A DNA stretch of 64,000 nucleotides from Amycolatopsis balhimycina FH 1894 (GTDB lineage Bacteria; Actinomycetota; Actinomycetes; Mycobacteriales; Pseudonocardiaceae), in the NCBI RefSeq assembly GCF_000384295.1, contig NZ_KB913037.1:2900649-2964648 (forward strand), given 5' to 3'. A program made the translations under genes and the position numbers. Under the pieces are notes generated by a model. That model saw nothing but the letters and a program-made list of their open reading frames with translations, did no database searches and had not been told where the DNA came from. Positions within the stretch are counted from its first letter, which is position 1. Each line of letters opens with the position of its first letter. Shown here in pieces: positions 1,273 to 64,000 of this stretch.

Positions 1273-2238
1273 GTGCGCAGGACCATCGACTGGGCGGACG
1301 GCGCGATCGTCATCATCGACCAGACCGCGCTGCCCGCGGAGTACCGGCTGCTCGAGCTGCGGACCGTCGGCGAACTGGTCGACGCGATCAAGCGGCTGGC
1401 CGTGCGTGGCGCACCCGCGCTCGGAGCGGCGGGTGCGCTGGGCGTCGCGCTGGCGGCCCGTCTCGGCGGGGACGTCCGGGCCGACGCCGAGCTCGTCGCC
1501 CAGGCCCGGCCGACCGCGGTCAACCTGGCCTGGGGCGTCGAACGCGCGCTCGCGAAGCTCCCCGAGGGTGCCGACGCGGTCCTCGCGGAGGCGCAAGCCC
1601 TGCTCACCGAGGACGAACGACTGAACAAGACGGCGTCGGCGCACGCGGCCGAGATCGTGCTGGCTGAATGCCCGCGCCGGCCGCTGCGGCTGCTCAGCCA
1701 CTGCAACGCCGGGCATCTGGCGACCGTCGGCTGGGGCAGCGCGCTCGGCGTCGTCTGGCACCTGCACGAACGCGGTCTCGTCGAGGAGGTCCTCGTTGAC
1801 GAGACGCGCCCGCTGCTCCAGGGCGCCCGGCTGACGGCGTGGGAACTGGCGCAGGCGAAAGTCCCCTACCGCGTCCAGCCCGACGGCGCGGCCGCCGCGG
1901 CGATGGCGCGCGGGCTGGTCGACTGCGTGCTCGTCGGCGCCGACCGGATCGCGGCCAACGGCGATGTCGCCAACAAGATCGGCACCTACGGCCTGGCGAT
2001 CGCCGCAAAACACCACGGCGTGCCGTTCGTCGTGGTCGCCCCCTCGTCCACAGTGGACAGGCGGCTCGCGGACGGCACGGGCATCGCCATCGAAGAACGC
2101 GACGCCCGCGAGCTCACCGAATACGCCGGGGTACTCCTCACGCCGCCGGACGCGCGGGTCTTCAACCCCGCGTTCGACGTCACGCCGTCGGCGCTGATCA
2201 CGGCCGTGGTCACCGAGCACGGCCGCTTCACGTCCTAA
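1273..2238 (+). CDS. mtnA: S-methyl-5-thioribose-1-phosphate isomerase
   Basis: Isomerises methylthioribose-1-phosphate to methylthioribulose-1-phosphate in cytosolic methionine salvage; 321 aa, near the family's usual 330-350. Visible signatures are RGAPALGAAGA (45-55), the catalytic cysteine in LSHCNAGHLA (Cys144) and the catalytic aspartate in GADRIAANGD (Asp223), followed by ANKIGTYG. The GTG start is preceded by GAGGAGGG at 1262-1269. The stop overlaps the stop of the convergent ferredoxin gene by three bases. No other methionine-salvage gene is next to it. It carries one copy of the GTCC-N5-GGAC motif at 2046. Confidence 0.95.
   Translation: MRRTIDWADGAIVIIDQTALPAEYRLLELRTVGELVDAIKRLAVRGAPALGAAGALGVALAARLGGDVRADAELVAQARPTAVNLAWGVERALAKLPEGADAVLAEAQALLTEDERLNKTASAHAAEIVLAECPRRPLRLLSHCNAGHLATVGWGSALGVVWHLHERGLVEEVLVDETRPLLQGARLTAWELAQAKVPYRVQPDGAAAAAMARGLVDCVLVGADRIAANGDVANKIGTYGLAIAAKHHGVPFVVVAPSSTVDRRLADGTGIAIEERDARELTEYAGVLLTPPDARVFNPAFDVTPSALITAVVTEHGRFTS
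2046..2058. repeat. GTCC-N5-GGAC intragenic palindrome (exemplar)
   Basis: Exemplar of a 13-bp hyphenated palindrome seen by eye at 2046, 7618, 26833, 27013, 34199, 34229, 34977, 46290, 48391, 52820, 54923, 62488 and 63865, with one-base variants at 33620, 47801 and 58815. All lie inside genes and all read in the same phase, TCC-NNN-NNG-GAC (Ser-x-x-Asp). In 11 of the 13 exact copies the central base, which is the third position of the x codon, is A or T (ACA, ATT, TTT, GCT, GGT, CAT, ACT, GAA), although neighbouring codons almost always end in G or C. Function unknown. Confidence 0.7.
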
Positions 2239-2450
2239 GGGCGCGGGCCGATCTCGCGGCCGCCGTCGGTCACGGTGATCGCCATCGCCGGACACGAATC
2301 CGCCGCGTCGAGCACGGTTTCGTCGGCGTCCACGGCCGAGGTCACCGGGTGCGCGACCGCGCCGTCCAGCGCGAACACCTCCGGCAGCAGCGCGGCACAC
2401 ATCCCCGAGCCGATGCAAGTGTGTTCGTCGATCTCCACGTGCCAGGTCAT
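2235..2450 (-). CDS. 3Fe-4S ferredoxin (P450 partner)
   Basis: Small electron carrier of 71 aa. It has Cys12 and Cys18 in CIGSGMC and a third cysteine at about 53 in DSCPAMAI. In the [3Fe-4S] ferredoxins that serve actinobacterial P450s, the second cysteine of the classical 4Fe-4S motif is replaced, here by glycine, as in this protein. It lies two bases after the stop of the adjacent P450 gene and is surely its redox partner in the same transcript. Start: ATG at 2450. An ATG at 2459, overlapping the P450 stop, is also possible and would add MVT. Cytoplasmic. Confidence 0.88.
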   Translation of the reverse strand: MTWHVEIDEHTCIGSGMCAALLPEVFALDGAVAHPVTSAVDADETVLDAADSCPAMAITVTDGGREIGPRP

Positions 2451-2452
2451 CG

Positions 2453-3634: not shown

Positions 3635-3656
3635 GAGGTACCCCCGTGCTCCAGAT

Positions 3657-3676
3657 TTGTAAGCAGCCGCTTACAA
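3657..3676. promoter_or_regulatory. Probable TetR-type operator before P450
   Basis: Perfect palindrome TTGTAAGC-AGCC-GCTTACAA, 23 bp upstream of the start of the minus-strand P450. Length and symmetry are typical of TetR-family operators. It is well placed to block the P450-ferredoxin promoter. The TetR encoded at 5769 is the nearest candidate ligand-responsive regulator, but its own upstream palindrome (5750-5765) has a different sequence, so an unlinked regulator is equally possible. Confidence 0.65.
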
Positions 3677-3788
3677 CGCTACACAGCGATCATGCTCACG
3701 TCGAGCGCCGTGGTGATCACCCAAGGTCACGCCGTAGCGGAAAGTTTCCGTCCGGATGTCACGGTCAGCCATTGCCTTGTCACGAAGA

Positions 3789-5529: not shown

Positions 5530-5532
5530 GCC

Positions 5533-6360: not shown

Positions 6361-9099
6361 TCACGGCAGGGCGCGCCGCAGCAGTTCCGCCAGGTGCACC
6401 GGCTCACGACCCGACTCCTGGGCGATCTGCGTCCGGCAGCTGAAGCCGTCCGACACGACCACCGTCTCCGGGGACGCCGCGCGGATCGCGGGAAGCATCC
6501 GGTCTTCGGCGACCGCCTTCGACACGTCGTAGTGACCGCGCTCGAAGCCGAAGTTGCCGGCCAGGCCGCAGCAACCCGAGTCCAGCGTGGTGTTCCGGAC
6601 GCCCGCGGCCGCCAGCGCGGACTCGTCGGCGCCGAAGCCCAGGACGGCGTGCTGGTGGCAGTGCACCTGCGTGATCGCGTCGACGTCGAGGTCCGCGAAC
6701 GGGATCGGCGCCCGGGCCAGGAGTTCCGCGAACGTGAACGTCCGCGACGCCAGCAGCTCGGCGCGCGGGTCGCCCGGCAGCAGCGCGGGCAGGTCGCCGC
6801 GGAACAACGCCGTGCAGCTCGGTTCCAGGCCCGCCACCTCGTACCCGTCCGCCAGGTACGGCGCCAGCACGTCCAGGGTCCGGTCCAGGACCCGGCGGGC
6901 GACGCCGAGCTGGCCCGTCGACACCCAGGTGAGTCCACAACAGACTCCGCGGTCCGGCAGGACGACGTCGTAGCCGGCCGCGGTCAGCACCTCGTGCGCG
7001 GCCGCCAGCACCGACGGCGTCAGGTAGTTGTTGAACGAATCCGGCCAGAGCACCACGCGGCGCTCGCCCGGCGCCCGGCGTCGCAGATCCGCCCGCGTCC
7101 GGGTGAACGGCGCGGGCGCGAACTGCGGCAGCGCGCGTTCCGGGGCGATCCCGCCCAGCCGTTTGAGCAGGCCGGACACCCGCCGGGACCGCCCGACGGC
7201 GTTGGCCAGGCGGGGCATCCGCGCGCTCAGCCGCAGCCAGAGCGGCAGCCAGCCCATCGAGTAGTGCGACGCCGGGCGCCGCCGCCGCCGGTAGTGCTGG
7301 TGCAGGAACTCCGCCTTGTAGGTCGCCATGTCGACATCGACCGGGCAGTCGGACAGGCAACCCTTGCAGGACAGGCACAAGTCCAAGGCTTCGCGCACTT
7401 CGGACGAGCGCCAGCCGTCCGTGATCACCTCACCGTTGATCATCTCCGCCAGCAGGTGTGCTCGGCCGCGCGTCGAGTGCTTCTCTTCGCGGGTCGCCCG
7501 ATAGCTCGGGCACATCACGCCGCCGCCGCTGGTGTTGCGGCACTTCCCGACGCCGACGCAGCGCCGCATCGCCTGGCCGAAACTCCCCCGGTCTTCGGGG
7601 TATCCCAGCACGGTGACGTCCTCAATGGACAGTGGCGCCGGACGGACGCGGAGGTTCGCGTCGACCGGCCGCGGCGCCACCAGGATGCCGGGGTTCATCC
7701 GCCCGGCGGGGTCGAAGATCGCCTTGAACCGCGCGAAGACGTCCATCATTTCCGGGCTGTACATGCGGGACAGCAGTTCGGACCGCGCCTGCCCGTCGCC
7801 GTGCTCGCCGGACAGCGATCCGCCGTGCGCCGCGACGAGGTCCGCGGCCTCCTCGAGGAACCGCCGGAACCCGGCGATCCCCTGCGAGGACAGCAGATCG
7901 AAGTCCAGCCGCAGGTGCAGGCAGCCCTCGCCGTAGTGGCCGTAGACCACGCTGCGGCGCCCGTGCGCCCGCATGAGCTCCTTGAACTCGCGCAGGTACG
8001 CGCCGAGCCGCTCCGGCGGGACGGCGGCGTCCTCCCAGCCGGGCCAGGCCTCCGAGCCGTCGGCGAGCCGGGTCGCGAGCCCGGCGCCTTCTTCGCGGAT
8101 GCGCCACAACCGGCGTTGCGCGGCCGGGTCGTCGAGGATCGTGAAGCCGGTGAGGTCGAGCGACGAGGCCAGCGCGCGGGCCCGCTCGGCCGGATCGTCC
8201 CCGGCCAGTTCGACGAACAGCCAGGCCCCGCCCGGCGGCAGGTCGCCGGCCCGGCCGGGGAGCATCGCGACGAGCTCGGCGTCCACGCCCTCGACGGTCA
8301 GCGGGGACCACGGCAGGATCGACGGCACCGCGTCGGCGGCGGCGATGTCGGACGGGAACCCCAGCACCGCCAGCACCCGGCGCTTCGGCAGCTCGGCCAG
8401 CGCGACCGTGGCCTCCAGGACGGTCACGCACGTGCCCTCGCTGCCGACGAGCGCCTTGGCGACGTCGAAACCGTTCTCCGGCAACAAGTGTTCGAGCCCG
8501 TAGCCCGAGACGCGGCGTGGCCACGTCGAGAGTTCCTTGCGCAGCACCGCCAGGTTGTCCCGCACCAGCGCGCGCAGCTCGTCGAAGATCCGGCCTTCGG
8601 CGGGTTCGTCCCGGCCGGCCCGCAGCCGCGTGCCGTCGTAGAGCAGGACGTCCAGCGACCGGACGACGTCGGCCGTGCGGCCCCACGCCACCGAGTGCGA
8701 GCCGCAGGCGTTGTTGCCGATCATCCCGCCGAGCGTGCAGCGGCTGTGCGTCGACGGGTCCGGGCCGAACCGCAGCCCGTGCGGGGCGGCGACCGCCTGC
8801 AGGTCGTCCAGCACCGTGCCGGGCAGCACGCGCGCGAGCCGTCTCTCGGGGTCCAGCTCGAGGACGCCGCCGAGGTGCCTCGACGTGTCGATCACCAGCC
8901 CCGGCCCGCAGGCGTTCCCGGCGACGCTCGTGCCGCCACCGCGCGCGATCACCGGCAGGTCGCGCGCGCGGGCCTCGGCGACCGCGGCGACGACGTCGTC
9001 GACGGTCCGGGGCAGCACCACGCCGCGGGGGACGTGACGGTAGTTGGACGCGTCGGTGGTGTACAGCGCGAGCGTGGCGGCGTCGGTGAGGATCTCCAC
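6361..9099 (-). CDS. FAD-binding and Fe-S cluster fused oxidase
   Basis: Large flavoprotein of about 912 aa, a GlcD-GlcF-like fusion (D-lactate or 2-hydroxyacid dehydrogenase type). The N-terminal PCMH FAD domain has GGGTSVAGNA (54-63). Then comes the FAD-oxidase C-terminal domain, two iron-sulfur cysteine groups (about 513-530, and CLSCKGCLSDCP near 575-585), and two CCG-type repeats (GVCCGL near 720, SGCCGLAGNFGF near 840). It probably oxidises a 2-hydroxyacid and passes electrons to the membrane chain. The GTG at 9099 begins the recognisable MEILTD segment; longer in-frame starts would run into the divergent PHP gene. Only 37 bp separate the two starts. Confidence 0.85.
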   Translation of the reverse strand: MEILTDAATLALYTTDASNYRHVPRGVVLPRTVDDVVAAVAEARARDLPVIARGGGTSVAGNACGPGLVIDTSRHLGGVLELDPERRLARVLPGTVLDDLQAVAAPHGLRFGPDPSTHSRCTLGGMIGNNACGSHSVAWGRTADVVRSLDVLLYDGTRLRAGRDEPAEGRIFDELRALVRDNLAVLRKELSTWPRRVSGYGLEHLLPENGFDVAKALVGSEGTCVTVLEATVALAELPKRRVLAVLGFPSDIAAADAVPSILPWSPLTVEGVDAELVAMLPGRAGDLPPGGAWLFVELAGDDPAERARALASSLDLTGFTILDDPAAQRRLWRIREEGAGLATRLADGSEAWPGWEDAAVPPERLGAYLREFKELMRAHGRRSVVYGHYGEGCLHLRLDFDLLSSQGIAGFRRFLEEAADLVAAHGGSLSGEHGDGQARSELLSRMYSPEMMDVFARFKAIFDPAGRMNPGILVAPRPVDANLRVRPAPLSIEDVTVLGYPEDRGSFGQAMRRCVGVGKCRNTSGGGVMCPSYRATREEKHSTRGRAHLLAEMINGEVITDGWRSSEVREALDLCLSCKGCLSDCPVDVDMATYKAEFLHQHYRRRRRPASHYSMGWLPLWLRLSARMPRLANAVGRSRRVSGLLKRLGGIAPERALPQFAPAPFTRTRADLRRRAPGERRVVLWPDSFNNYLTPSVLAAAHEVLTAAGYDVVLPDRGVCCGLTWVSTGQLGVARRVLDRTLDVLAPYLADGYEVAGLEPSCTALFRGDLPALLPGDPRAELLASRTFTFAELLARAPIPFADLDVDAITQVHCHQHAVLGFGADESALAAAGVRNTTLDSGCCGLAGNFGFERGHYDVSKAVAEDRMLPAIRAASPETVVVSDGFSCRTQIAQESGREPVHLAELLRRALP

Positions 9100-9136
9100 G
9101 CCCCCATTCAAGACGATCGGTGGGACGATCCGCTGC

Positions 9137-9964
9137 GTGACGATCGACCTGCACACGCACAGCACCGCCTCCGACGGGACCACGCCGCCCGCGGAGCTGC
9201 CCCGGCTGGCCGTCCTCGCCGGCCTGACGGTGATCGCCTTGACCGATCACGACACGTTCGCCGGACTGGCCGAGGCGACGAACGCGGCGGACGGCGTCGA
9301 GGTGGTCCCCGGCGTCGAGATCTCGTGCCGCCTCGACGACGCCGAGGTGCACCTGCTGGGCTACTTCGCCGACCCGGGGCACGCGCCGCTGGCGGCCGAA
9401 CTGGAGCTGATCCGCACCGACCGGACCCGCCGCGCGGTGCGGATGGTGGAGCGCTGCCGCGAGCTGGGCGCGCCGATCACGCTCCCGCAGGTCGAGGCCA
9501 TCGCGGGCGGCGCACCCCTCGGCCGCCCCCACGTCGCGTCGGCCCTGGTGGCGGCGGGCGTGATCGAGGACACGGCGGGCGCGTTCACCCCGGCCTGGAT
9601 CGCCGACGGCGGCCGCGCGGACGTGCCGAAACACGTTTTGGCGACGACGGAGGCGATCGCATTGGTCCGCGCGGCAGGCGGCGCGGCGGTGCTCGCCCAC
9701 CCGCGGTCGGTGAAGCGCCGAGCCGAGGTCACGGACGTCCAGCTGGCCCGGCTCGCCGAAGCGGGTCTCGCCGGGATCGAGGCGGACCACCCGGAGCAGC
9801 CGCCGGAGGTCAGGCAGCGGCTGAGCGAGGTGGCCACGGAGCTGGGGCTGGCGATCACCGGATCGAGCGACTTCCATGGCGACCGCAAGCCGGTCCGCCT
9901 CGGCGAGTTCACGACGTCCCCGGAGGTACTGGCGGCTCTCCGCGAGGCCGCTGAACAGCCGTGA
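9137..9964 (+). CDS. PHP domain phosphoesterase
   Basis: Metal-dependent phosphoesterase of 275 aa, of the YciV/RNase AM-like group that hydrolyses 3',5'-nucleoside bisphosphates or trims short RNA ends. The PHP metal ligands are visible in DLHTHSTASDG (4-14), ALTDHDT, GVEIS and the C-terminal SDFHG. GTG at 9137 is chosen because the PHP motif begins immediately after it. Divergent from the FAD/Fe-S oxidase. Its stop codon lies inside the first arm of the hairpin at 9961-10007. Confidence 0.88.
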   Translation: MTIDLHTHSTASDGTTPPAELPRLAVLAGLTVIALTDHDTFAGLAEATNAADGVEVVPGVEISCRLDDAEVHLLGYFADPGHAPLAAELELIRTDRTRRAVRMVERCRELGAPITLPQVEAIAGGAPLGRPHVASALVAAGVIEDTAGAFTPAWIADGGRADVPKHVLATTEAIALVRAAGGAAVLAHPRSVKRRAEVTDVQLARLAEAGLAGIEADHPEQPPEVRQRLSEVATELGLAITGSSDFHGDRKPVRLGEFTTSPEVLAALREAAEQP

Positions 9965-10007
9965 ATGGCACATTGAGGGACTTGACGTCCCTCAATGTGC
10001 CATTCAC
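9961..10007. terminator. 21-5-21 perfect hairpin, bidirectional terminator-like
   Basis: Arms 9961-9981 and 9987-10007 are perfectly complementary over 21 bp around a 5-nt loop (TTGAC). It lies between the convergent PHP and amino acid dehydrogenase genes and includes the PHP stop codon. A second element of identical geometry and about 16 of 21 identical arm positions is at 23739-23785. No T-tract follows, so it would be an actinobacterial-type hairpin terminator or a repeated structural element. Confidence 0.75.
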
Positions 10008-10026
10008 GGACCTTCTCGGGGCAGGT

Positions 10027-11061
10027 CTATGCGGCGACGCCGGACGCCGCGGCCGCAAGCCGCCGCTCGACCAGGGCGGACGCCTCCTCCAGCGGTGTGG
10101 TCCCGTTGGCCTTCGCGGCCTCGAGGAGGTCAGCGACGGTCCGCTCGATCGTCTCCACCCGGGCAAGCGCCGCGTCGTGGCTCAGGCCGCCTGCCTCCCG
10201 CGAGAGGGTGTAGAGGATGCCGCCCGCGCTCGCCACGTAGTCCGGGATCCACAGCACGCCCCGCGCGGCGAGGTCGGCCGCGACCGCGTCGGCCGTGAGC
10301 TGGTTGTTGGCCGGGCCGACCACCACCGGTGTGTCGAGCCGGGCCACCGTCGCCGGGCTCAGGACCCCGCCGACCGCCGCCGGGATCACCACGTCGGCCG
10401 TCAAGGTGAGCGCTTTTTCCGGCTCCACCCAGGTCAGTCCGCTGCTCTCGGCTGAAGCTCGCTTCGCCGAGTCGGTATCGGAGACGACGACGTCGGCGCC
10501 GGCCGCCCGCAAGCGAGCGGCCAAGTGGGTGCCGACCGCGCCGTAGCCGCTGATCACCGCCCGGCGGCCCGTCATGTCCGCCGTGCCGAACACGGCACGG
10601 AGCGCGGCGAGCACGCCGATGGCGGTCGGACCGCTGGATGAGCCCGTGCCGCCCGCGGACTCCGGCGTGCAGAACGCGAACGCCGAGACCTCGCGGAACA
10701 CCAGCATGTCGTCCGGTCCGGTGCCGACGTCCGGGCCGGCGAGGTAGGCCCCGCCGAACTCGGCGATCAGGTCGGCGTGGTCGAGGAGGACGTCCCGGCG
10801 GTCCGCCGGCGTCAGCACGCGTCCCGGTTCCGGCGCGATGACGCTCTTGCCGCCTCCGTACGCGAGTCCCGCGACGGCGCACTTGGCCGTCATCGCGGCG
10901 GACAGGCGGAGGACGTCGGCGACGGCCTGGTCGAGGCCGGCGTACGGCTTGAAGCGGCAGCCGCCGACGGCGGGGCCGAGGGCGGTCGAATGGATCGCGA
11001 TCATCGTGGTGACGCCGGATCGACGGCCACGGCGGGCCACGAGCTGCTCATGTGCGGTCAT
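10027..11061 (-). CDS. Leu/Val/Phe-type amino acid dehydrogenase
   Basis: NAD-dependent oxidative deaminase of branched-chain or aromatic amino acids, 344 aa, slightly shorter than the usual 350-370. The family segments HSTALGPAVGGCRF, MTAKCAVAGLAYGGGKSVI (the substrate and catalytic lysines) and the NAD-binding GYGAVGTHLA are present. Valine, leucine and phenylalanine dehydrogenases cannot be separated by eye. ATG at 11061. It is divergent from an Lrp/AsnC regulator 77 bp away, which very likely controls it in response to an amino acid. The 3' end faces the PHP gene across a strong hairpin. Confidence 0.88.
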   Translation of the reverse strand: MTAHEQLVARRGRRSGVTTMIAIHSTALGPAVGGCRFKPYAGLDQAVADVLRLSAAMTAKCAVAGLAYGGGKSVIAPEPGRVLTPADRRDVLLDHADLIAEFGGAYLAGPDVGTGPDDMLVFREVSAFAFCTPESAGGTGSSSGPTAIGVLAALRAVFGTADMTGRRAVISGYGAVGTHLAARLRAAGADVVVSDTDSAKRASAESSGLTWVEPEKALTLTADVVIPAAVGGVLSPATVARLDTPVVVGPANNQLTADAVAADLAARGVLWIPDYVASAGGILYTLSREAGGLSHDAALARVETIERTVADLLEAAKANGTTPLEEASALVERRLAAAASGVAA

Positions 11062-11104
11062 GTCGGCCTAAGTTAGAGTGAACATCGACGAAGTCGGCGA
11101 GCCG

Positions 11105-11119
11105 CCGAACGAAATTCGG
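11105..11119. promoter_or_regulatory. Possible Lrp site
   Basis: Short inverted repeat CCGAA-CGAAA-TTCGG in the divergent gap between the dehydrogenase and the Lrp gene. Size and position suit an Lrp/AsnC half-site pair. The evidence is only symmetry and location. The Lrp ribosome binding site CGGAGG follows at about 11128. Confidence 0.3.
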
Positions 11120-11138
11120 TCCCGATACGGAGGTCCCG

Positions 11139-11597
11139 GTGCTGGACGAACTTGATTCGGCGATCGTGCGCCTGCTGCAGGAGGACGCGCGGCAGACCAA
11201 CCGGGACATCGCCCGCAAGGTCGGCATCGCGCCGTCGACGTGTCTCGAACGGATCCGGTTGCTCCGCGAACGCGGCGTCATCCGCGGTTACCACGCCGAC
11301 ATCGACCTCGCGAGCCTCAACCGCGGCGTCCGGGCGCTCGTCACGGCGCAGGTGCGGCCGCTGAGCCGGGCGGTGATCGATTCCTTCCAGCGGTCGATCG
11401 CCGAGCTGCCGGAAGTGCTTTCGGTGTACGTCACGGCCGGAAACGACGATTTCCTGATCGAAGTGACCACTCCCGGCATCGACGCGTTGCACGCTTTCCT
11501 CACCGACCGGCTGGCATTGCGCCGTGAGATCGTCGGCTTCCGGACGTCGATCGTTTTCCGCCACCTGCGCAAGACCACGCTTGAACCGCTTTCCTGA
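11139..11597 (+). CDS. Lrp/AsnC family transcriptional regulator
   Basis: Feast-famine regulator of 152 aa. The N-terminal helix-turn-helix is DEL...QTNRDIARKVGIAPSTCLERI (about 3-37); the C-terminal RAM/ligand domain includes VLSVYVTAGNDDFLIEV. GTG start with CGGAGG about 6 nt upstream. Divergence from the amino acid dehydrogenase implies that it regulates that gene, and probably itself, in response to a branched-chain or aromatic amino acid, as BkdR-type and other linked Lrp proteins do. Confidence 0.93.
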   Translation: MLDELDSAIVRLLQEDARQTNRDIARKVGIAPSTCLERIRLLRERGVIRGYHADIDLASLNRGVRALVTAQVRPLSRAVIDSFQRSIAELPEVLSVYVTAGNDDFLIEVTTPGIDALHAFLTDRLALRREIVGFRTSIVFRHLRKTTLEPLS

Positions 11598-11603
11598 GGG
11601 GTA

Positions 11604-11622
11604 CTCCGGGATTACCCCGGAG
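11604..11622 (+). terminator. Hairpin after lrp
   Basis: CTCCGGG-ATTAC-CCCGGAG forms a 7-bp GC-rich stem with a 5-nt loop, starting 7 bases after the Lrp stop codon. Placement fits a short terminator. No U-tract follows. Confidence 0.5.
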
Positions 11623-11737
11623 CAGCGCGACACGCCACCCCTACGTGGAGACCCTAAATCCCCGGGTTCGCACGCTGGGAGGCGGAAACTGTCGGTGGTG
11701 GGGCGTCTAATGAGCACGACGGGAAGGAGGCGCCGCC

Positions 11738-11995
11738 ATGATCACCGAATTGAACCATCGTGAGCGGGCCACGTTGAGAGCCGTGGCCGGGGGCCAGGCC
11801 GAGATCAGCTGCAGCTGCGAGCCAGACCTGTTCATCGACGGCCTGAGCTGCTGTGACCAGACGACCGTGCACCGGCTGGCGCGGCTCGGCCTGATCGCCC
11901 CGGCCCGCCCCGGCAAGTGCGGCGAGCGCGTGCCCGCCCTGCTCACCGAGGCCGGCTCGCAGGCACTGGGCGAGGTCCTCGCCGTCGCCGCGTAA
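11738..11995 (+). CDS. Small cysteine-rich HTH-like protein
   Basis: 85-aa protein that I do not recognise as a named family. A GGAAGGAGG ribosome site at about 11720-11728 supports the ATG at 11738. The central part (DQTTVHRLARLGLIAP, then a basic loop and PALLTEAGSQALGE) reads like a recognition helix and wing of a winged-helix DNA-binding protein. There are five cysteines: a CSC pair near residues 25-27, a CC pair near 38-39 and one in GKCGER, enough to bind a metal or sense redox state (inference). It stands alone between Lrp and the GNAT gene. Confidence 0.7.
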   Translation: MITELNHRERATLRAVAGGQAEISCSCEPDLFIDGLSCCDQTTVHRLARLGLIAPARPGKCGERVPALLTEAGSQALGEVLAVAA

Positions 11996-12617: not shown

Positions 12618-13244
12618 TCAGGCGGTGATCCAGTGGTCGCCCACGGAACTTGGGGCGGCTTCGCCGTTGGTCTGGTCTGCCAGCCAGCTTTCGAAAGCTT
12701 CAACCTGGCCCGGCTCGAGGCCGGTCTCGAAGTGGGCTCGCTCCTCGAAGCGGGTCGCATGGAGGAGGTACGGCGACGCGCGCAGGTCGTTCTCCAGCCG
12801 GCCCGCGCGGTCGTAGCCGACCGCCACGTCGACCATGCGCAGCCGACGGTGTTCTAGTACACCAACAACTTCCAGTGCGTCCGAAACGGACTGACCGTAC
12901 GCGCGGATGAGCCCGCCGACGCCCAGCAACACGCCGCCGAAGTACCGCGTCACCACCGCGACCGTGTCGGTCAGCTCGCGGCGGCGCAGCACTTCCAGCA
13001 TCGGCGTGCCCGCGGTGCCCGCCGGCTCGCCGTCGTCACTGGACCGCCGAGTTCGCCCATCCGGCCCCAAAACGAAGGCGTGACAGTGGTGCCGCGCCTG
13101 CGGATCGGCGCGGCGGCGGGCCGCGATGAACTCGCGCGCGGCCTCCTCCGAGGTCACCGGAGCGAGCGCGCACAGGAAGCGGGAGCGCTTGATCTCGATC
13201 TCGTGGACGCTCGTCCGAGCCACGGAGAGATAACGATCAGCCAT
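12618..13244 (-). CDS. YigZ/IMPACT family protein
   Basis: 208-aa protein of the YigZ/IMPACT (UPF0029) family. The conserved core is KRSRFLC, HHCHAFVLG, SSDDGEPAGTAGTPML and TRYFGGVLLGVGGLIRAYG, followed by a smaller C-terminal domain. Members are cytosolic and linked to translation or stress control, but no catalytic reaction is established. I start at the ATG at 13244 because homology begins at MADRYLS; the upstream extension to 13433 looks non-coding. Monocistronic, as far as seen. Confidence 0.88.
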   Translation of the reverse strand: MADRYLSVARTSVHEIEIKRSRFLCALAPVTSEEAAREFIAARRRADPQARHHCHAFVLGPDGRTRRSSDDGEPAGTAGTPMLEVLRRRELTDTVAVVTRYFGGVLLGVGGLIRAYGQSVSDALEVVGVLEHRRLRMVDVAVGYDRAGRLENDLRASPYLLHATRFEERAHFETGLEPGQVEAFESWLADQTNGEAAPSSVGDHWITA

Positions 13245-47699: not shown

Positions 47700-48319
47700 T
47701 CTTCGGCGCTCGCGAGTGCGTTGATCGCCGCGACGGCCATGGCGCTGCCGCCCCGCCGTCCGTGGACGACCAGGTACGGCGCCGGAGCCCGCTTCGCGAG
47801 CTCCACTTTGGACTCCGCCGCGCCGACGAACCCGACCGGGACGCCGATGATCGCCGCGGGGGCGCCGACGCCTTCGTCGAGGATTTCCAGGAGGCGGAAC
47901 AGCGCGGTCGGCGCGTTGCCGATCGCCACGACCGAGCCGGGCAGCTTGTCGCGCCACAGTTCCAGGGCCGCGGCCGAACGCGTGGTGCCCATGCGTTCGG
48001 CGAGCCCGGGCACAGCGGGGTCGGACAGCGTGCAGAGCACCTCGTTGTCCGCGGGCAGGCGGCGCCGGGTCACGCCGCTGGCGATCATCCGCGCGTCGCA
48101 CAGGATCGGCGCGCCGGCTTCCAGGGCGGCCCGGCCGGATTCGACGACGTCGAGCGTGTAGCGCAGGTCGTCGACCAGATCGACCATGCCGCAGGCGTGG
48201 ATCATCCGGACCGCGAGGCCCGCCACGTCGTCGGGCAGGATCGCCAGGTCCGCCTCCTCGCGGATCGTGGCGAACGAGTGCCGGTAGATCTCGGCACCGT
48301 CCCGCAGGTAGTCGATCAC
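47696..48319 (-). CDS. cobH: Precorrin-8X methylmutase
   Basis: 207-aa enzyme that moves the C11 methyl to C12, giving hydrogenobyrinic acid. The catalytic histidine is in [17 protein letters not shown] (about residue 41); [26 protein letters not shown] and [11 protein letters not shown] are family blocks. GTG at 48319 overlaps the cobG stop (GTGA), and its own stop overlaps the cobI ATG, so the three genes are tightly coupled. Confidence 0.96.
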
Positions 48320-49389
48320 AGATTCCCCTTCAGCTCGTCGAGCGGCACCCACCGGCCGTCGATGCGGTAGCCCCCCGCTTCGGCGACAACGTCCACATGG
48401 GACTGCGACGGCTTCCCGCACCGCCGTTCGCAGCCCGAGAAGTGCGCGCGCAGGCCGGGCCGGAACACGGCGTCGGCGCGCACGTCGGCGCGCGACTTCG
48501 CGCAGCCCGGACGGCCGATGCACGCGCTGGTGCCCAGCGGCACGCCACCGAAACCCAGCCGCTCGAAGACGTCGGCGGGCACGTCCGGCAGGACCACGGA
48601 CTTCCACGGCGTGACCAGCGCCGGGCCGAACCCGGCCAGCACCCGGGCCTGCGCTGCGGACAGCTGCCCGAAGCGGGGCACGACACCGGCCGCGAAGCCG
48701 CCGTCCCGCTCGATCAGCCCGGCCGGGACCGTGCCGTCGACCCGCGGCACCGGCGTCCCCCGCCACTCCGGGTCGTCGAGTTCGGCGACGCGCCAAGCGG
48801 CCCCGCGCACCCGGCAGAACTCGAGCGCGACCTCGACGAGCACCGAGACGGCGTCGGCGCGAAGCACCCGCCGTCCCGTGTCACCGCCCGCGAGCAGCAG
48901 CGTTCCCCCGGACGGGCCGGTCGCCCGCCAGCAGACGTCGGGGCTCTCTCCCGTGACGTCCCCGCGGCCGTCGTCGAAGGCGAAGAGGAAGCGGCCGGGC
49001 AGCGATGCCAGCTCCGGCGTCGAACACAGCGCGAGATCCAGCGCAGCCGCCAGGCCGCGGACGTCGGAGAGGCCGCCGCGCAGTCCGCTCAGGGGCGACG
49101 CCAGGACGTTCCGGACCCATTCGTGCGACGGCGACGGCAGCAGGCCGGCGTCGGTGAGCCGGGCGGCGAGGCCGGGCCGGGTGACGCCGCGCAGCTGGAC
49201 GTTGCCGCGCGAGGTGAGGTGGAGGTCGCCGTCGCCGCAAGCTTCGGCCCCATCGGCCAGCGCGCGCAGCTGCGCTGCGGAAATCGTGCCGCCGGGCAGC
49301 CGCACCCGGGCCAACGGTCCGTCGGCGGCGTCGTGGGGTGCGAAAACACCAGGGCACGCGTCGGCTCGCACGCGCGCTGGGGTCGGCAT
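48316..49389 (-). CDS. cobG: Precorrin-3B synthase
   Basis: 357-aa oxygen-dependent monooxygenase of the sulfite/nitrite reductase fold, diagnostic of the aerobic pathway. The N-terminal ferredoxin-like half carries [14 protein letters not shown]. The Fe-S/siroheme-like cysteines are in [10 protein letters not shown] and FSGCERRCG near residues 290-330. ATG at 49389 begins the recognisable [14 protein letters not shown]; upstream in-frame codons belong to the DUF6191 gene region. First gene of cobG-cobH-cobIJ. Confidence 0.94.
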
Positions 49390-52805: not shown

Positions 52806-55800
52806 GTGATCCTGCTTTTGTCCACTTCGGACACCGACCTGCTCAGCGCTCGATCGAGCGACCGAGAGTACCGGCTCGGCAACCCCGCCCGGCTCGACGT
52901 CGCCGAGCTGCCCGGGCTGCTCGACGGCGTCAAGATCGTCGTCGCGCGGATCCTCGGCACGCCGCGGAGCTGGCAGGACGGCCTGGACACGCTGCGGGCC
53001 TCGGGCGCGCACGTCGTCGTCCTGGGCGGGGAGCAGACGCCGGACGCCGAGCTGATGAAGCTCTCGACCGTTCCGGCCGGCATCGCCGCCGAGGCCCACG
53101 CGTACCTCGCGCAGGGCGGCCCGGCGAACCTCACCCAGCTCCACCGGTTCCTCTCCGACACGCTCCTGCTCACCGGCGACGGCTTCGAGCCGCCCGCCGA
53201 GCAGCCCGCGTGGGGTGTGCTGGAGCGTCCTTCGCAGGGCGACGGCCCGGTCATCGGGATCCTGTACTACCGGGCACACCACCTGTCCGGGAACACGGCG
53301 TTCGTGCACACGCTCGCCGACCAGATCGAAGCCGCGGGCGGGCGCGCGTTGCCGATCTACTGTGCTTCGCTGCGTACGCGCGAGCCGGAGATGATGGCCG
53401 AGCTGACAACCGTCGACGCCCTGCTGGTCACGGTGCTCGCGGCCGGTGGCACGCGGCCGTCCGAGGTGGGCGCCGGCGGGGACGACGAGGCGTGGGACGT
53501 CGCCGAGATGGCCGCGCTCGACGTCCCGATCCTGCAGGCGCTGTGCCTGACCAGCGACCGCGAGGCCTGGGCGGCCAGCGACGACGGCCTCTCGCCGCTC
53601 GACGCCGGGAACCAGATGGCCGTGCCGGAGTTCGACGGACGGCTGATCACGGTGCCGTTCTCGTTCAAGGAACTCGACGAAGACGGGCTGCCGCGGTATG
53701 TGCCGGACGCCGAGCGCGCGTCGCGCGTCGCTCGCATTGCGCTGGCACACGCCCGGCTGCGGTACACGCCTCCTGCGGAGCGGCGCATCGCGCTGATGCT
53801 GTCCGCGTACCCGACGAAGCACTCTCGCGTCGGCAACGCGGTCGGGCTGGACACGCCCGCGTCGGCGGTCGAACTGCTGCGGCGGATGCGCGATGTGGGC
53901 TACGACCTGGGACCGGACGCGTTCCCCGGCGTCGAGCCGACCGGGACCGACCAGCCCGACGGTGACGCCCTCATCCACGCGCTGATCGCCGCCGGCGGCC
54001 AGGACCCGGAGTGGCTCACCGAGGAACAGCTGGCCGGGAACCCGATCCGCGTGCCCGCCGCGCGGTACCAGGAGTGGTTCGACGCGCTGCCGGCCGAACT
54101 GCGCGACGGCGTCGAGGAGCACTGGGGCCCGGCGCCCGGCGAACTGTACGTCGACAACGGCGACATCGTGCTGGCGTCGCTGCAAAGCGGCAACATGATC
54201 ATCATGATCCAGCCGCCGCGCGGGTTCGGCGAGAACCCCGTCGCGATCTACCACAACCCGGACCTGCCGCCGAGCCACCACTACCTGGCCGCCTACCGGT
54301 GGCTCGAGGAGGAGTTCGGCGCGCACGCCGTCGTCCACCTCGGCAAGCACGGGTCCCTGGAGTGGCTGCCGGGCAAGACCGCGGGGCTTTCGGCGTCGTG
54401 CGCACCCGACGCCGCGCTCGGGAACCTGCCGCTGGTGTACCCGTTCCTGATCAACGACCCCGGCGAGGGCGCGCAGGCGAAACGGCGGGCGCACGCGACG
54501 ATCGTCGACCACCTGATCCCGCCGATGGCGCGCGCGGAGTCGTACGGCGACATGGCGCGGCTGGAGCAGCTGCTCGACGAGCACGCGAACATCGCGGCGA
54601 TGGACCCGGCGAAGCTGCCGGCGATCCGCGCGCAGATCTGGACGCTGATCCAGGCCGCGAAGCTCGACCACGACCTCGGCGTCGAGGAACGGCCGCACGA
54701 CGCGGAGTTCGACGACTTCCTGCTGCACATCGACGGCTGGCTCTGCGAGGTCAAGGACGCGCAGATCCGCGACGGGCTCCACGTCCTGGGCGCGGCGCCT
54801 ACCGGCGAAGCCCGCGTCAACCTGGTGCTGGCGATGCTGCGCGCGTCGCAGATGTGGGGCGGCAAGCAGGGTGCGATCCCGGGCCTGCGGTCGGCGCTGG
54901 GGCTCAAGGAGAACGCGCCGATGTCCGAAGTGGACGCGGTCGAGAAGACGGCGCGTGAGCTCGTCCAGACGATGGAGATGCGCGGCTGGGACGCGACCGC
55001 GGTCGCTTCGGTCGCGCCGGACGAGCAGGTCGCGCGGGTGCTTTCGTTCGCGGCTTCCGAGATCGTCCCGCGGCTCGCGGGGACGTCCGCCGAACTCGAC
55101 GCGGTGCTGCACGCGCTGGACGGCGGGTACATCCCGGCCGGGCCGAGCGGGTCGCCGCTGCGCGGGCTGATCAACGTGCTGCCGACCGGCCGGAACTTCT
55201 ACACCGTCGACCCGAAGGCGATCCCGAGCCGGCTCGCCTGGGAAACCGGGCAGGCGCTGGCGGATTCCCTTTTGAAGCGCTACCGCGAGGACACGGGCGA
55301 CTGGCCGAAGTCGGTCGGGCTTTCGGTGTGGGGCACGTCGGCGATGCGGACGTCCGGCGACGACGCGGCGGAAGTCCTGGCGCTGCTGGGCGTCCAGCCG
55401 GTGTGGGACGAAGCTTCGCGGCGCGTCACGGGCATCGAGGCCGTTCCCCTGGCCGAGCTGGGCCGGCCCCGGATCGACGTCACGGTGCGGATCAGCGGGT
55501 TCTTCCGCGACGCGTTCCCGCACGTGATCGCGTTGATGGACGACGCGGTGCGGCTGGTGGCGTCGCTGGACGAACCCGGTGACGAGAACTTCGTCCGCGC
55601 GCACGTCTCGGCGGACCTGGCCGCATACGGCGATTCCCGCCGGGCGACCACGCGGATCTTCGGGTCGAAGCCGGGCGCGTACGGCGCCGGCCTGCTGCCG
55701 CTGATGGACAGCGGAAACTGGCGCGACGACAAGGACCTCGCGGAGGTGTACGCGGTGTGGGGCGGCTTCGCGTACGGCCGCGACCTCGACGGTCGCCCGG

Positions 55801-56369
55801 CGCGCGAGGACATGGAGAATTCGTACAAGCGCATCGTGGTGGCGGCGAAGAACACGGACACGCGCGAACACGACATCGCCGACTCGGACGACTACTTCCA
55901 GTACCACGGCGGGATGATCGCGACGGTCCGCGCGCTGACCGGCGCGGCCCCGGCGTCCTACGTGGGCGACAGCACCTCACCGGACGCGGTCCGCACCCGC
56001 ACGCTGGGCGAGGAGACGGCCCGGGTGTTCCGCGCGCGGGTCGTCAACCCGCGCTGGCTGGCGGCGATGCGCCGTCACGGCTACAAGGGCGCGTTCGAGC
56101 TGGCGGCCACAGTGGACTACCTGTTCGGCTTCGACGCGACAGCAGGCGTCGTCGGCGACTGGATGTACGAGAAGCTGACCGAGTCGTACGTGCTCGACGA
56201 GGTGAACCAGGAGTTCCTGCGGCAGGCGAACCCGTGGGCGCTGCGCGGGATCGTGGAGCGCCTGAACGAGGCGGCGGACCGCGGGCTGTGGGAGGAGCCG
56301 GACCCGGCGTTGCTCGAGAAGATGCGCGAGGTGTACCTGTCGCTGGAGGGTGACCTCGAGTCGGAATGA
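52806..56369 (+). CDS. cobN: Cobaltochelatase subunit CobN
   Basis: 1187-aa large chelatase subunit that binds hydrogenobyrinate a,c-diamide and inserts cobalt with an AAA+/VWA partner. Family segments include GILYYRAHHLSGNTAF, HLGKHGSLEWLPGKTAGLS and GNLPLVYPFLINDPGEGAQ, then LINVLPTGRNFYTVDPKAIP. GTG at 52806 follows GAGGAGG. It is alone downstream of a B12 riboswitch and separated from the ID chelatase gene by 14 kb. Contains two GTCC-N5-GGAC motifs (52820, 54923). Confidence 0.97.
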   Translation: MILLLSTSDTDLLSARSSDREYRLGNPARLDVAELPGLLDGVKIVVARILGTPRSWQDGLDTLRASGAHVVVLGGEQTPDAELMKLSTVPAGIAAEAHAYLAQGGPANLTQLHRFLSDTLLLTGDGFEPPAEQPAWGVLERPSQGDGPVIGILYYRAHHLSGNTAFVHTLADQIEAAGGRALPIYCASLRTREPEMMAELTTVDALLVTVLAAGGTRPSEVGAGGDDEAWDVAEMAALDVPILQALCLTSDREAWAASDDGLSPLDAGNQMAVPEFDGRLITVPFSFKELDEDGLPRYVPDAERASRVARIALAHARLRYTPPAERRIALMLSAYPTKHSRVGNAVGLDTPASAVELLRRMRDVGYDLGPDAFPGVEPTGTDQPDGDALIHALIAAGGQDPEWLTEEQLAGNPIRVPAARYQEWFDALPAELRDGVEEHWGPAPGELYVDNGDIVLASLQSGNMIIMIQPPRGFGENPVAIYHNPDLPPSHHYLAAYRWLEEEFGAHAVVHLGKHGSLEWLPGKTAGLSASCAPDAALGNLPLVYPFLINDPGEGAQAKRRAHATIVDHLIPPMARAESYGDMARLEQLLDEHANIAAMDPAKLPAIRAQIWTLIQAAKLDHDLGVEERPHDAEFDDFLLHIDGWLCEVKDAQIRDGLHVLGAAPTGEARVNLVLAMLRASQMWGGKQGAIPGLRSALGLKENAPMSEVDAVEKTARELVQTMEMRGWDATAVASVAPDEQVARVLSFAASEIVPRLAGTSAELDAVLHALDGGYIPAGPSGSPLRGLINVLPTGRNFYTVDPKAIPSRLAWETGQALADSLLKRYREDTGDWPKSVGLSVWGTSAMRTSGDDAAEVLALLGVQPVWDEASRRVTGIEAVPLAELGRPRIDVTVRISGFFRDAFPHVIALMDDAVRLVASLDEPGDENFVRAHVSADLAAYGDSRRATTRIFGSKPGAYGAGLLPLMDSGNWRDDKDLAEVYAVWGGFAYGRDLDGRPAREDMENSYKRIVVAAKNTDTREHDIADSDDYFQYHGGMIATVRALTGAAPASYVGDSTSPDAVRTRTLGEETARVFRARVVNPRWLAAMRRHGYKGAFELAATVDYLFGFDATAGVVGDWMYEKLTESYVLDEVNQEFLRQANPWALRGIVERLNEAADRGLWEEPDPALLEKMREVYLSLEGDLESE

Positions 56370-61475: not shown

Positions 61476-61494
61476 CCGATTTTCTTCAGAAGTC

Positions 61495-62586
61495 TCAGAA
61501 GCCGAGGTGGGTGTTCTCGCGCTGGACCTCCGGGGTCAGCGCGGGCACCTCGACGACGTCGCGCCCGGCCTGCCGCAGCAGCTCGGTGCCCTGGGCGTCG
61601 ACGAAGACCAGTGGCTCGCGCCAGGCGAACACGATGCGCGGGATGCCGGCGTCGAGGATGAGCTGGGTACAGCTGCGCGGGTGCGAACTCCGGTTGCTGC
61701 ACGGCTCCAGCGAGCTGTACATCGTCGCCCCGGCCAGGCGCGGGTCGCCGGCGCACTTGGCGAGCGCCGCTTCTTCGGCGTGGTTCAACGGATCGCCCTC
61801 GCCGGAATGCCCGGTCGCGACGACCTCGCCGTCGGCGCCGGTGATCACGGCCCCGACCCGGAAGGTGTGGCTCGGCGGGCATTCGGCGGCGAGCGCGATG
61901 GCTTCCCTGAGCCGCCGGACGTCCCGGCCGGACGGCTCCTCCGCCGCGCGGTACTCGAGGATCGCCATCCCTTGCAGTTCTTTCGCGCTGGTGAGGACCA
62001 GCGGCCGCGGATAGCGCCCCGGCCCGACGAACTTCGGCGCGTCCGGCTGCCCGACGAAGAACGGTGCGATCGCCAGGCGCAGCTCGTCGGCCAGGCCTTC
62101 GGTGAGGAATCGCGTGTGGATTCCGCCGCCGCCTTCGACCAGCAGCTTTTCGATGCCGCGCGCCCCGAGGTCGTCGAGGACGCGGCCGAAGTCGGGTGGG
62201 TCGCCGGCGTCGACGACGGTGGCGAGGTGCTTCACGGCGTCCGCGGCGCCGGGCGGCGCGTAGACGATCTTTTCGGTGTCCCCCACGGTGAAGAACTGCG
62301 CGTCCGGATCGAGGCCGCGGGTGGTCACGGTGACCTTGACGGGCTGCTCGGGCTTTCCCCGCGCCACGCGTTGCCGCCGCAGCTCGGGTGACCGCACGAG
62401 CAGCCGCGGGTTGTCGGCGCGGACGGTCCCGGCCCCGACGAAGATCGCGTCTGCCTCGGCCCGCAACCGGTCGACGACGGCGAAGTCGTCCTCAGTGGAC
62501 AGCACGAGCCGCTCGGGCGAGGTGTCGTCGAGGTAGCCGTCGAGCGACTGCGCGGCGGACAGCAGGACGTGCGGCCGGGAGATCAC
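61495..62586 (-). CDS. RibD-like reductase-deaminase, reversed domain order
   Basis: 363-aa fusion. The N-terminal ~210 residues are a RibD_C/DHFR-like reductase (VLLSAAQSLDGYLDD, FVGAGTVRADNPRLLVR, KLLVEGGGGIHTRFL). The C-terminal ~140 residues are a cytidine-deaminase-fold domain with zinc ligands in NHAEEAALAK and SLEPCSNRSSHPRSC. Classical bacterial RibD has the deaminase first. It probably catalyses deamination and reduction in riboflavin or a related pathway. GTG at 62586 with GGGGCGG upstream. No other rib genes adjoin. Convergent with the chitinase gene. Confidence 0.85.
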   Translation of the reverse strand: MISRPHVLLSAAQSLDGYLDDTSPERLVLSTEDDFAVVDRLRAEADAIFVGAGTVRADNPRLLVRSPELRRQRVARGKPEQPVKVTVTTRGLDPDAQFFTVGDTEKIVYAPPGAADAVKHLATVVDAGDPPDFGRVLDDLGARGIEKLLVEGGGGIHTRFLTEGLADELRLAIAPFFVGQPDAPKFVGPGRYPRPLVLTSAKELQGMAILEYRAAEEPSGRDVRRLREAIALAAECPPSHTFRVGAVITGADGEVVATGHSGEGDPLNHAEEAALAKCAGDPRLAGATMYSSLEPCSNRSSHPRSCTQLILDAGIPRIVFAWREPLVFVDAQGTELLRQAGRDVVEVPALTPEVQRENTHLGF

Positions 62587-62672
62587 CCGCCCCAGTATGC
62601 CGTAACACCTTCGGTGATCCTCGCGTCCTACGACGTATCCCTGTGATCCCCCATCCCCCGGAGCTGCGGAAC

Positions 62673-62924
62673 ATGACCACGCGAGGCTGGTACAAGGAAC
62701 GGACACTCACCACGGTCGACACCGTCGGCCGCGAGGTGCCGGTGACGACCGGGCTCACCCGCGACCCCGAAGGCCGCCTGGTCGCGGCGATCGCCATCAG
62801 CGACGGCCCGACGGCGATCTACCGCTACTCCGGGGACACGAGCGACCGGACCGAGCTGGTCACCAACGCCGCGGACACCGTCCAGGAGCTCCGCAAGCTC
62901 GCGGACATCCCGCCCGCGCAGTGA
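62673..62924 (+). CDS. Small hypothetical protein
   Basis: 83-aa soluble protein with a well-formed coding bias, charged and beta-strand-like (GRLVAAIAISDGPTAIYRYS) followed by a C-terminal helix TVQELRKLADI. No family recognised. ATG at 62673 with CGGAG about 13 nt upstream; a GTG at 62643 would add ten residues. Divergent from the RibD-like gene and convergent with proA. Confidence 0.6.
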   Translation: MTTRGWYKERTLTTVDTVGREVPVTTGLTRDPEGRLVAAIAISDGPTAIYRYSGDTSDRTELVTNAADTVQELRKLADIPPAQ

Positions 62925-62946
62925 CGTCCGGCACCGGCGCGGAGCT

Positions 62947-64000
62947 TCAGGCGGGCAGGACCGCGTACTGGCGGACGTAGAGGTCCGTGTACGTCACCGG
63001 CCCGCGGGGACCGGGGACCTTGTCCAGGTTGATGCCGGTCTCCGGGACCGCGAGCAGCTTGAAGCCGTCGAGGAGGCGGGTCGGCGCGTTCCAGAAGACG
63101 CCCGTGCCGGTGTAGCCGTCGAAGAAGGCGTCGGCGGCCGACTCGTCCTCGGTGGCGATGCCCGCCGCCAGGCCCGAGGTCCGCTCGTTGGCGATCTCGA
63201 CGGCGTCGGCGAGCGAGCCGACCTTGGCGACCGTGACGGTCGCTTCCCGGTCGGAGTCGAGCGCCCACTCGTAGCCGATGGGGTGCTCGTGCGGGGCCAG
63301 CGAAGGCGTCACGCCCCGCTCGGCGAGCGCCTCGGAGATCGCCGGCCAGGCTTCGTCGTGGATGCCCTCGTGGACGAGGAGCAGGTTGAGCCGGTTGCAG
63401 ACGCCCAGGCGGTCGAGGCTGGCGTAGACCAGGTCACGCGCCTTGGTGACGTCCGCGCCACGGTCGACGTACAGGACCCCGCCGCCGTCGGCGTGGGCGA
63501 GCGTGCGCACGCCGTGGACCGCCGCCTCGGTGGCGAGCGCCCGGGTGCTGTCACCGCTGCCGCGCAGGATCACCAGCGGCACCAGGTCCGGCAGCCGCAC
63601 CAGCGCGGACGCCGCCTCGCGCTCGACACGGGGCACCAGCTGGACGCAGTCCGCGTCGATGCCCGCCTCCGCCAGCGCCGGCGCGATGACGACGTCGCGC
63701 AGCCGCTGCGCCGAGCCGAGCGCGGCCGAGCCGGTGCGCAGGACGCCGCCGTTGCGCGACTTGACCAGCTGCGACGCCACGTCGACGGTCACGTTCGGCC
63801 GCGCCTCGTAGTTCGCGCCGATGACGCCGACCGGGCGCCGCCGCTCGACCAGCCGCAAGCCGCCGTCCAGCGTGGACACCTCGACCGAGCGCTCCTGGTG
63901 TGACGCGCCGGCGAGCAGCCGCAGCTGCTCGGCCATGCCGGTCAGCCGATCCGGGGTGATGGTGAGCCGGTCGAGCAGACCGGCGCTCATCCCCTCGCTC
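62947..64000 (-). CDS. proA: Glutamate-5-semialdehyde dehydrogenase (partial)
   Basis: Gamma-glutamyl phosphate reductase of proline synthesis, cut by the window edge: at least 351 codons are visible and the frame is still open at 64000. The family blocks are MSAGLLDRLTITPDRLTGMA, NYEARPNVTVDVASQLVKSR and the catalytic cysteine in LGVCNRLNLLLVH (family usually PSVCNA). An ATG at 63990 exists but homology (EGMSAGLLDRL) runs across it. Some blocks differ from canonical ProA (for example GVLRTGSAA), so a ProA-like paralogue is possible. Confidence 0.8.
   Translation of the reverse strand, partial: SEGMSAGLLDRLTITPDRLTGMAEQLRLLAGASHQERSVEVSTLDGGLRLVERRRPVGVIGANYEARPNVTVDVASQLVKSRNGGVLRTGSAALGSAQRLRDVVIAPALAEAGIDADCVQLVPRVEREAASALVRLPDLVPLVILRGSGDSTRALATEAAVHGVRTLAHADGGGVLYVDRGADVTKARDLVYASLDRLGVCNRLNLLLVHEGIHDEAWPAISEALAERGVTPSLAPHEHPIGYEWALDSDREATVTVAKVGSLADAVEIANERTSGLAAGIATEDESAADAFFDGYTGTGVFWNAPTRLLDGFKLLAVPETGINLDKVPGPRGPVTYTDLYVRQYAVLPA

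Follow-up and report, generated by a model that had tools for sequence, protein, structure and literature searches.

What does the palindrome GTCC-N5-GGAC represent in the genome of Amycolatopsis balhimycina FH 1894, where 15 exact copies, 12 of them with A or T as the central base, are located within a single stretch of 64,000 nucleotides (contig NZ_KB913037.1, positions 2900649–2964648, referred to here as the window)? Dinucleotide shuffles of the window contain 3.59 ± 1.95 copies, with a maximum of 12, and none of 100 shuffles reaches 15. All 15 copies are positioned inside predicted genes and share the codon phase TCC-NNN-NNG-GAC; here and throughout, the genes were called using a codon-usage script and not taken from a curated annotation. 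A sequence-only reading of the window had listed 13 copies, 11 of them with an A/T centre. The listed copies are all exact and correctly positioned, and the recount gave the same 11, but two more copies, at 12879 and 61921, had been overlooked. The reading had placed all its copies inside genes, which holds for the complete set, and nine of them in cob genes, which is also correct (cobQ and cobC contain two each, cobB, cobIJ, and a cobG-like gene one each, and cobN two).

The genome is a single contig of 10,858,503 bases, in which GTCC-N5-GGAC occurs 2235 times, compared to 106 occurrences of the reversed pattern. The form with an A/T centre (W) accounts for 1540 copies, about one per 7 kb, against 21 for the reversed-pattern control; the form with a G/C centre is denoted S. 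With 12 W copies, the window hardly departs from the genome-wide average of about nine per 64 kb.

A codon-usage or protein-level explanation is that the palindrome is an artefact of Ser-x-x-Asp helix caps written in preferred codons. The serine codon TCC and the aspartate codon GAC are common, and the dominant phase imposes the fewest amino-acid constraints. Synonymous codons were shuffled within the 719 predicted genes of an 864-kb set, which consists of eight 100-kb blocks of the genome and the window. The shuffled genes contain 47.4 ± 5.6 copies vs 132 observed, and for the W form 7.2 ± 2.4 (60 shuffles, maximum 12) vs 90 observed. In a larger set of 1008 genes (1.0 Mb), 122 W copies are present where codon shuffles yield 9.5 and 7.9, whereas the S form is barely raised (67 vs 50.7). 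GTCC with a gap of 5 has the highest z-score among gapped four-base palindromes with gaps of 0–14 (719 genes, eight codon shuffles). The codon shuffle is an imperfect null because other palindromes deviate as well, for example CTCG with a gap of 1 (249 vs 130), yet the W form is far outside it. Where Ser-x-x-Asp is encoded with GAC, a G before the serine codon, and a third codon ending in G, the wobble base of the middle codon is A or T in 96 of 157 cases after TCC, but only in 3 of 52 after TCG and 3 of 30 after AGC. Addition of 16 loci, 11 of which were picked for site pairs, changes these counts to 147 of 217, 5 of 76, and 3 of 41. The excess is also present in the other two phases (30 vs 4.0 and 14 vs 3.6, compared to 147 vs 7.1 in the favoured phase, in a set including the 11 pair-picked loci), and A/T predominates outside genes. 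The artefact is thereby refuted as the main cause, and we assign it next to no probability.

The 864-kb set contains 112 coding copies in the phase TCC-NNN-NNG-GAC, 20 in the other two phases, and 21 non-coding copies. W copies outnumber S copies in every class (74 to 38, 8 to 4, and 8 to 0 by phase, and 15 to 6 in non-coding sequence), and the central base is A in 54 copies, T in 51, C in 24, and G in 24, while 92% of third codon positions are G or C. The single codon phase claimed by the sequence-only reading is thus a property of the window, where it holds for 15 of 15 copies, and fails beyond it; the proposals that the motif exists at the DNA level and that the A/T wobble exceeds what Ser-x-x-Asp explains are supported. 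The preferred phase is most plausibly a by-product, because the favoured frame fixes only the serine and aspartate, and the other fixed bases fall at wobble positions.

The word can be written as GTCC-N2-W-N2-GGAC, with the core YGTCCACWGTGGACR. In the 864-kb set, 153 copies have a spacing of 5, and each other spacing from 0 to 40 has between 17 and 74. The favoured inner dinucleotides are AC (87 vs 1.8) and GA (37 vs 2.4), and also AA and AT. Arm mismatches are near background except for those of the outer G (ATCC 19 vs 5.3, CTCC 35 vs 14.2, TTCC 12 vs 5.4) and the change of the inner C to T (20 vs 5.1). The heptamer GTCCACA occurs 160 times vs 120.4 expected on both strands of genes, and 54 of these occurrences have the second arm vs 1.3 expected; without the second arm it is not raised on these strands (106 vs 119.1), so the excess of GTCCACA is due to the motif's own copies. 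A genome of a second genus of the same family, G611, contains 133 copies with a spacing of 5 in 400 kb (81 W and 52 S), with 1–29 at each of the remaining spacings between 0 and 15. Its predicted genes hold 65 W copies vs 5.5 in codon shuffles and 44 S copies vs 31.7. The sequence logo from G611 widens to ACYGTCCACWGTGGACRGT, and 45 core copies with perfect arms are present in the 400 kb vs 0–3 for each single-arm mismatch. The word exceeds the codon expectation, its arms are near-strict, and both arms at a spacing of 5 together with the A/T centre are needed.

The sites are not placed like promoter elements. Within 1.2 Mb, 122 sites are inside genes and 21 outside, and the non-coding share of the sequence is 16.7%; the sites are about equally dense between and within genes. 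Their positions are flat along the genes (11, 9, 16, 13, 11, 15, 14, 9, 9, and 15 sites in successive tenths), and there is no surplus at gene starts, with 16 sites within 150 bp vs 18.5 expected. Genes with a low GC content at third codon positions (GC3) are poorer in sites, with 75.7 per Mb at GC3 below 0.86 vs 114–197 per Mb above.

At orthologous positions, the conservation of some copies exceeds the demands of the protein. The gene cobN (52806–56369, + strand) contains the site GTCCACTTCGGAC at 52820–52832, in codons 5–9 near its 5′ end, and the site GTCCGAAGTGGAC at 54923–54935. Two sets of loci, which may share species, were compared. A same-genus cobN was found in 40 of 40 genomes, and the best 30 of the 40 loci, including that of the own genome, were used; the named set comprises 65 cobN loci, of which 41 are from Amycolatopsis, with 85–97% protein identity, and 40 of the 41 are covered. 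In the best 30 same-genus loci, A or T occupies the wobble position in at least 95% of sequences in 2 of 1189 codon columns, and both are motif centres. The site at 52820 is kept in all 30 of these loci and is complete in all 40 covered named loci, where the centre codon is ACT in 38 and ACA in two, although ACT and ACA together make up less than 6% of threonine codons. The site at 54923 is complete in 35 of the 40 named loci and differs by a single arm base in the other five; its A/T centre is present in all 40, as GAA (Glu) in 35 and GAT (Asp) in five, and never as GAG, which accounts for 72% of glutamate codons. Nine further motif centres were followed in three loci of the named set that served as references; four of them have A or T in all of the 9–10 related species.

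All 28 genomes examined from other genera and families encode the peptide LLSTSDTDL close to the beginning of CobN. It is spelled with an A/T-centred site in four of them (G611, G444, G457, and G493), with a G/C-centred site in four, and without the motif in 20. Since 24 of the 28 spell the peptide without the A/T-centred site, it is the DNA word that stays constant in cobN of Amycolatopsis, and not the peptide. The A/T-centred cobN site is present in three of three named Saccharopolyspora loci and in none of seven Actinopolyspora genomes, and the motif at the position corresponding to 54923 is intact in four of 12 stretches from other genera. Separately, the invariance of LLSTSDTDL across the 28 genomes makes it a handy natural control for work on synonymous sites.

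The enrichment is found throughout the genome and the genus. All 35 same-genus relatives tested contain 483–1881 A/T-centred sites, with the lowest numbers in G011 (483) and G013 (600), vs 14–66 for the reversed control. In a phylum sample of 296 genomes, in which the own genome was the sole representative of its family, no genome other than the own one has more than 127 A/T-centred sites. The exact word GTCCACWGTGGAC was counted in 397 genomes of the order. It occurs 98–225 times in 14 genomes of the own genus and 0–640 times in other genera of the family, with 0–2 copies in Actinopolyspora and a few other genera. Elsewhere in the order, one genus of family f5 has 195 and 237 copies and another 23, family f12 has 74 and 37, and G056 of family f9 has 114 vs one in G043 of the same genus; outside those families the count is at most eight. 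The named Actinopolyspora loci contain eight A/T-centred GTCC-N5-GGAC copies in 142 kb, none of them of the ACWGT kind. Amycolatopsis belongs to the Pseudonocardiaceae in the NCBI taxonomy, and Actinopolyspora, placed in the same family in the genome set used, is assigned to the Actinopolysporaceae by NCBI. We read the motif as an old trait with several losses; repeated gain is the alternative. None of the protein families searched showed a matching distribution among the genomes. The phages phiC31 and R4, with one W site in 91 kb, were considered as foreign-DNA controls and dropped, as their hosts are Streptomyces and not Amycolatopsis. Plasmids sought as further controls came solely from other genera, both among the matches listed and in the tallies by organism.

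We propose that GTCC-N2-W-N2-GGAC serves as an address scattered over about 1,500 places in the chromosome and read by a protein with a chromosome-wide role, and we consider the chances of this proposal evenly balanced. The dyad, the near-strict arms, and the A/T centre point to a dimeric protein that would read the duplex: a sequence-specific protein would bind the motif as a symmetric dimer, with one subunit on each GTCC half, and the A/T centre may ease bending or the fit of the minor groove. That the sites favour neither gene starts nor intergenic space argues, more weakly, for a chromosome-wide job, which could be nucleoid organisation, segregation, or genome maintenance, and not promoter control. 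SlmA, Noc, and ParB sites are palindromic dispersed addresses bound by dimers; the Amycolatopsis motif would resemble them in these respects and differs in number, as those systems have tens of sites each. A fuller version of the proposal, which we hold tentatively and regard as somewhat less probable than its opposite, describes a sequence-addressed system for the chromosome that Amycolatopsis would share with its family and a few further relatives. Its reader, a protein dimer, would recognise about 1,500 addresses of 13 bp, most of them inside genes, and serve the organisation, segregation, or maintenance of the chromosome. At many addresses, selection would override the choice of synonymous codons, and at one cobN site it would leave Glu and Asp codons without ever admitting the common GAG; the system would have been lost in lineages such as Actinopolyspora.

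Several observations weigh against a protein-read address under selection. Site density varies about 2.5-fold across eight 100-kb blocks (8–20 sites), genes with at least two sites are slightly more frequent than a Poisson distribution predicts (15 vs 9.3), and genes shorter than 600 bp contain few sites (seven in 147 kb, or 47.5 per Mb, vs 129–179 per Mb in longer genes). When 19 A/T-centred sites of the own genome (G000) were aligned to a relative, G028, 10 kept the arms and the A/T centre, one kept the arms with a G/C centre, and eight had lost both arms; a further 31 sites had no alignment to G028. The remaining five of the nine further centres keep A or T in only 8–45% of 29–39 species, which is no better than ordinary A/T wobbles, which average 25–41%. 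Outside Amycolatopsis, motif richness does not predict the cobN site: the A/T-centred site is found in three of 16 genomes with at least 18 exact copies and in one of 12 with 0–2 copies, and five of the 12 motif-poor genomes use ACT at the cobN codon with the arms broken. Biased repair or conversion could mimic selection. Furthermore, no reader was found among RecC, extra ParB proteins, and the methyltransferase families PF00145 and PF01555; other helix-turn-helix families were not searched. Because no reader protein was found, binding is proposed from the symmetry of the word alone.

The search for the reader covered ParB-type helix-turn-helix domains (PF17762) in 35 genomes. One strong match is present in 33 of them, G059 has none, and G364 has a split match. 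Weaker second matches occur in G451, G493, G566, and G042, of which only G451 is motif-rich, and no extra ParB-type protein marks the motif-rich genomes. An autoregulated reader gene, sought through close double sites near a regulator, yielded no candidate among 11 of the 12 close site pairs of the own genome. DnaA was considered and rejected as the reader. The DnaA box of Streptomyces and Mycobacterium, TTGTCCACA, includes GTCCACA in one strand of its consensus, but the box is not palindromic, GTCCACA is not raised without the second arm, and the four copies of TTGTCCACA without the second arm, vs 0.9 expected, are too few.

Three other explanations accept the word as a DNA-level signal. The word GTCCNNNNNGGAC may be made and kept by DNA modification and biased mismatch repair and not by selection for a bound protein, as debated for HIP1 of cyanobacteria. 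HIP1 sites are found inside and between genes, and the Amycolatopsis motif is likewise spread through coding and non-coding DNA. HIP1, GCGATCGC, is a highly iterated palindrome, which Elhai attributes to a repair bias linked to methylation (PMC4390886). The two phenotypes are alike in the strictness and great excess of the palindrome across genome and clade, in its low number or absence in some lineages, and in deviations biased towards the outer base, which are raised in Amycolatopsis as well; the inner C to T change is also raised in Amycolatopsis, unlike a purely outer pattern. At saturation, HIP1 is given as one per 1000 nucleotides in the same paper, compared to about one per 7 kb here. 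The Amycolatopsis word is a gapped 4-N5-4 palindrome with an A/T centre from GC-rich actinobacteria, and is neither GCGATCGC nor a described ungapped alternate. The central A/T swaps and the preferences at the N positions suit a protein–DNA fit better than an N-indifferent enzyme. Matches to PF00145 (C5 methyltransferases) and PF01555 (N6/N4) range from 0 to 9 and from 0 to 5 per genome, respectively, and are patchy; both families are absent from G599 and G056 among 28 motif-rich genomes, so that neither is common to all the motif-rich genomes tested, while HsdM, Eco57I-like, and other methyltransferase families were not searched. We consider this origin unlikely, and would file the Amycolatopsis word, by analogy, with the highly iterated palindromes, as distinct from HIP1.

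Similar to Chi or uptake sequences, the motif may alternatively be a signal for recombination or DNA exchange whose spread was due to the benefit of recombination or to its drive. Chi and uptake signals occur in hundreds to thousands of dispersed copies and need no link to promoters, and the scarcity of sites in low-GC3 genes fits accumulation in long-resident DNA. However, the RecC subunit of RecBCD reads Chi as a polar single strand, for which no dyad is needed, and RecC (PF04257) was found in none of the 16 motif-rich genomes tested and in seven of 22 motif-poor genomes, although AddAB/AdnAB and competence genes were not searched; a recombination signal appears quite improbable. The RecC-positive motif-poor genomes include four of the same family, which may be a phylogenetic coincidence. 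The remaining possibility is an ordinary transcription factor operator with very many, mostly intragenic sites, for which the closest parallel is the IclR-type regulator NdgR of Streptomyces. The 15-bp NdgR motif, [GT]T[CT]CAC[CA][CTA][TC][GC][TC]GGAC, has half-sites similar to GTCCAC and GTGGAC, and its transcription regulon is reported to comprise 19 loci (PMC4340878). The NdgR half-sites are separated by N7 instead of N5; GTCCAC-N3-GTGGAC, which corresponds to the NdgR spacing, is not raised here (1 vs 0.7), and GTCC and GGAC at a spacing of 7 occur 44 times vs 153 at 5. The sites are not concentrated at gene starts or between genes, and 10 of the 11 inspected close pairs of the own genome (12 pairs in total) are inside predicted genes, with one in a convergent gap. 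An operator is thus very unlikely.

The protein-read address remains our preferred explanation. No earlier description of the motif was found in one open-access library within the wordings searched, where the exact-string matches concerned other subjects. The cause of HIP1-like palindromes is still debated, and an independent case in another phylum makes the question testable. The gapped pattern looks as if read by a protein, the bait is a defined 13-mer, and lineages with and without the motif are available in one family. The motif also constrains synonymous codon choice, and codon-optimisation work and analyses of nonsynonymous to synonymous substitution ratios (dN/dS) in these bacteria would misread this constraint.

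The other sites of the window are distributed over ten genes. The mtnA gene for S-methyl-5-thioribose-1-phosphate isomerase (1273–2238, + strand) contains GTCCACAGTGGAC, with an A/T centre, at 2046–2058; the remaining genes are on the − strand. GTCCTCAATGGAC (7618–7630) is located in a gene for a YdiJ-like FAD-linked oxidase/Fe-S protein (6361–9183), and GTCCGAAACGGAC (12879–12891), the first of the overlooked copies, in a gene of the YigZ/IMPACT family (12618–13223). In cobQ (26560–28041), GTCCAAAAAGGAC (26833–26845) corresponds to GTCCAGAAAGGAC in G028, and GTCCACAATGGAC (27013–27025) has both arms altered in the G028 alignment. The cobC gene (33341–34381) carries GTCCACCGAGGAC (34199–34211), which has a G/C centre and probably belongs to the background class, and GTCCAAAGCGGAC (34229–34241), the G028 counterpart of which is GTCCACAGCGGAC. 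Both GTCCACACCGGAC (34977–34989) in cobB (34368–35693) and GTCCACATGGGAC (48391–48403) in the cobG-like gene (48316–49305) are not retained in G028, and GTCCACTGTGGAC (46290–46302) in cobIJ (46212–47699) is replaced there by GTCCACAGTGGAC, a central A/T swap. The RibD-like gene (61495–62586) contains the second overlooked copy, GTCCCGGCCGGAC (61921–61933), which is G/C-centred and probably background, and GTCCTCAGTGGAC (62488–62500), with GTCCTCATTGGAC as its G028 counterpart. The G/C-centred GTCCAGCGTGGAC (63865–63877), in a gene of the aldehyde dehydrogenase family (62947–63990), is probably also of the background class.

Beyond the window, the first 250 kb of the contig seems denser in sites, which may hint at a contrast between the ends and the middle; however, variants recur there at regular steps, similar to repeated modules, and 100-kb blocks elsewhere range from 8 to 20 sites. 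Recurrence is near-regular in G000:C1 at about 119–253 kb, for example of GTCCACTTCGGAC at 124170, 135144, 146665, and 157681, where repeated gene modules may carry the site along. Four A/T-centred sites at 30–39-bp steps are packed into 112 bp of G056 (L170:10001-10112), inside one predicted gene (9645–11987). A double site whose copies are 8 bp apart is conserved in G000:C1:6208101-6208134 and G005:C1:259511-259544 (L162 and L177), inside a predicted gene that looks orthologous in the two species. The paired sites at G031:C1:1978293-1978325, 2444392-2444418, and 9071637-9071671 are partly self-complementary, with cores similar to GTCCCCTTAGGAC and GTCCTAAGGGGAC, and resemble a different, larger inverted repeat.

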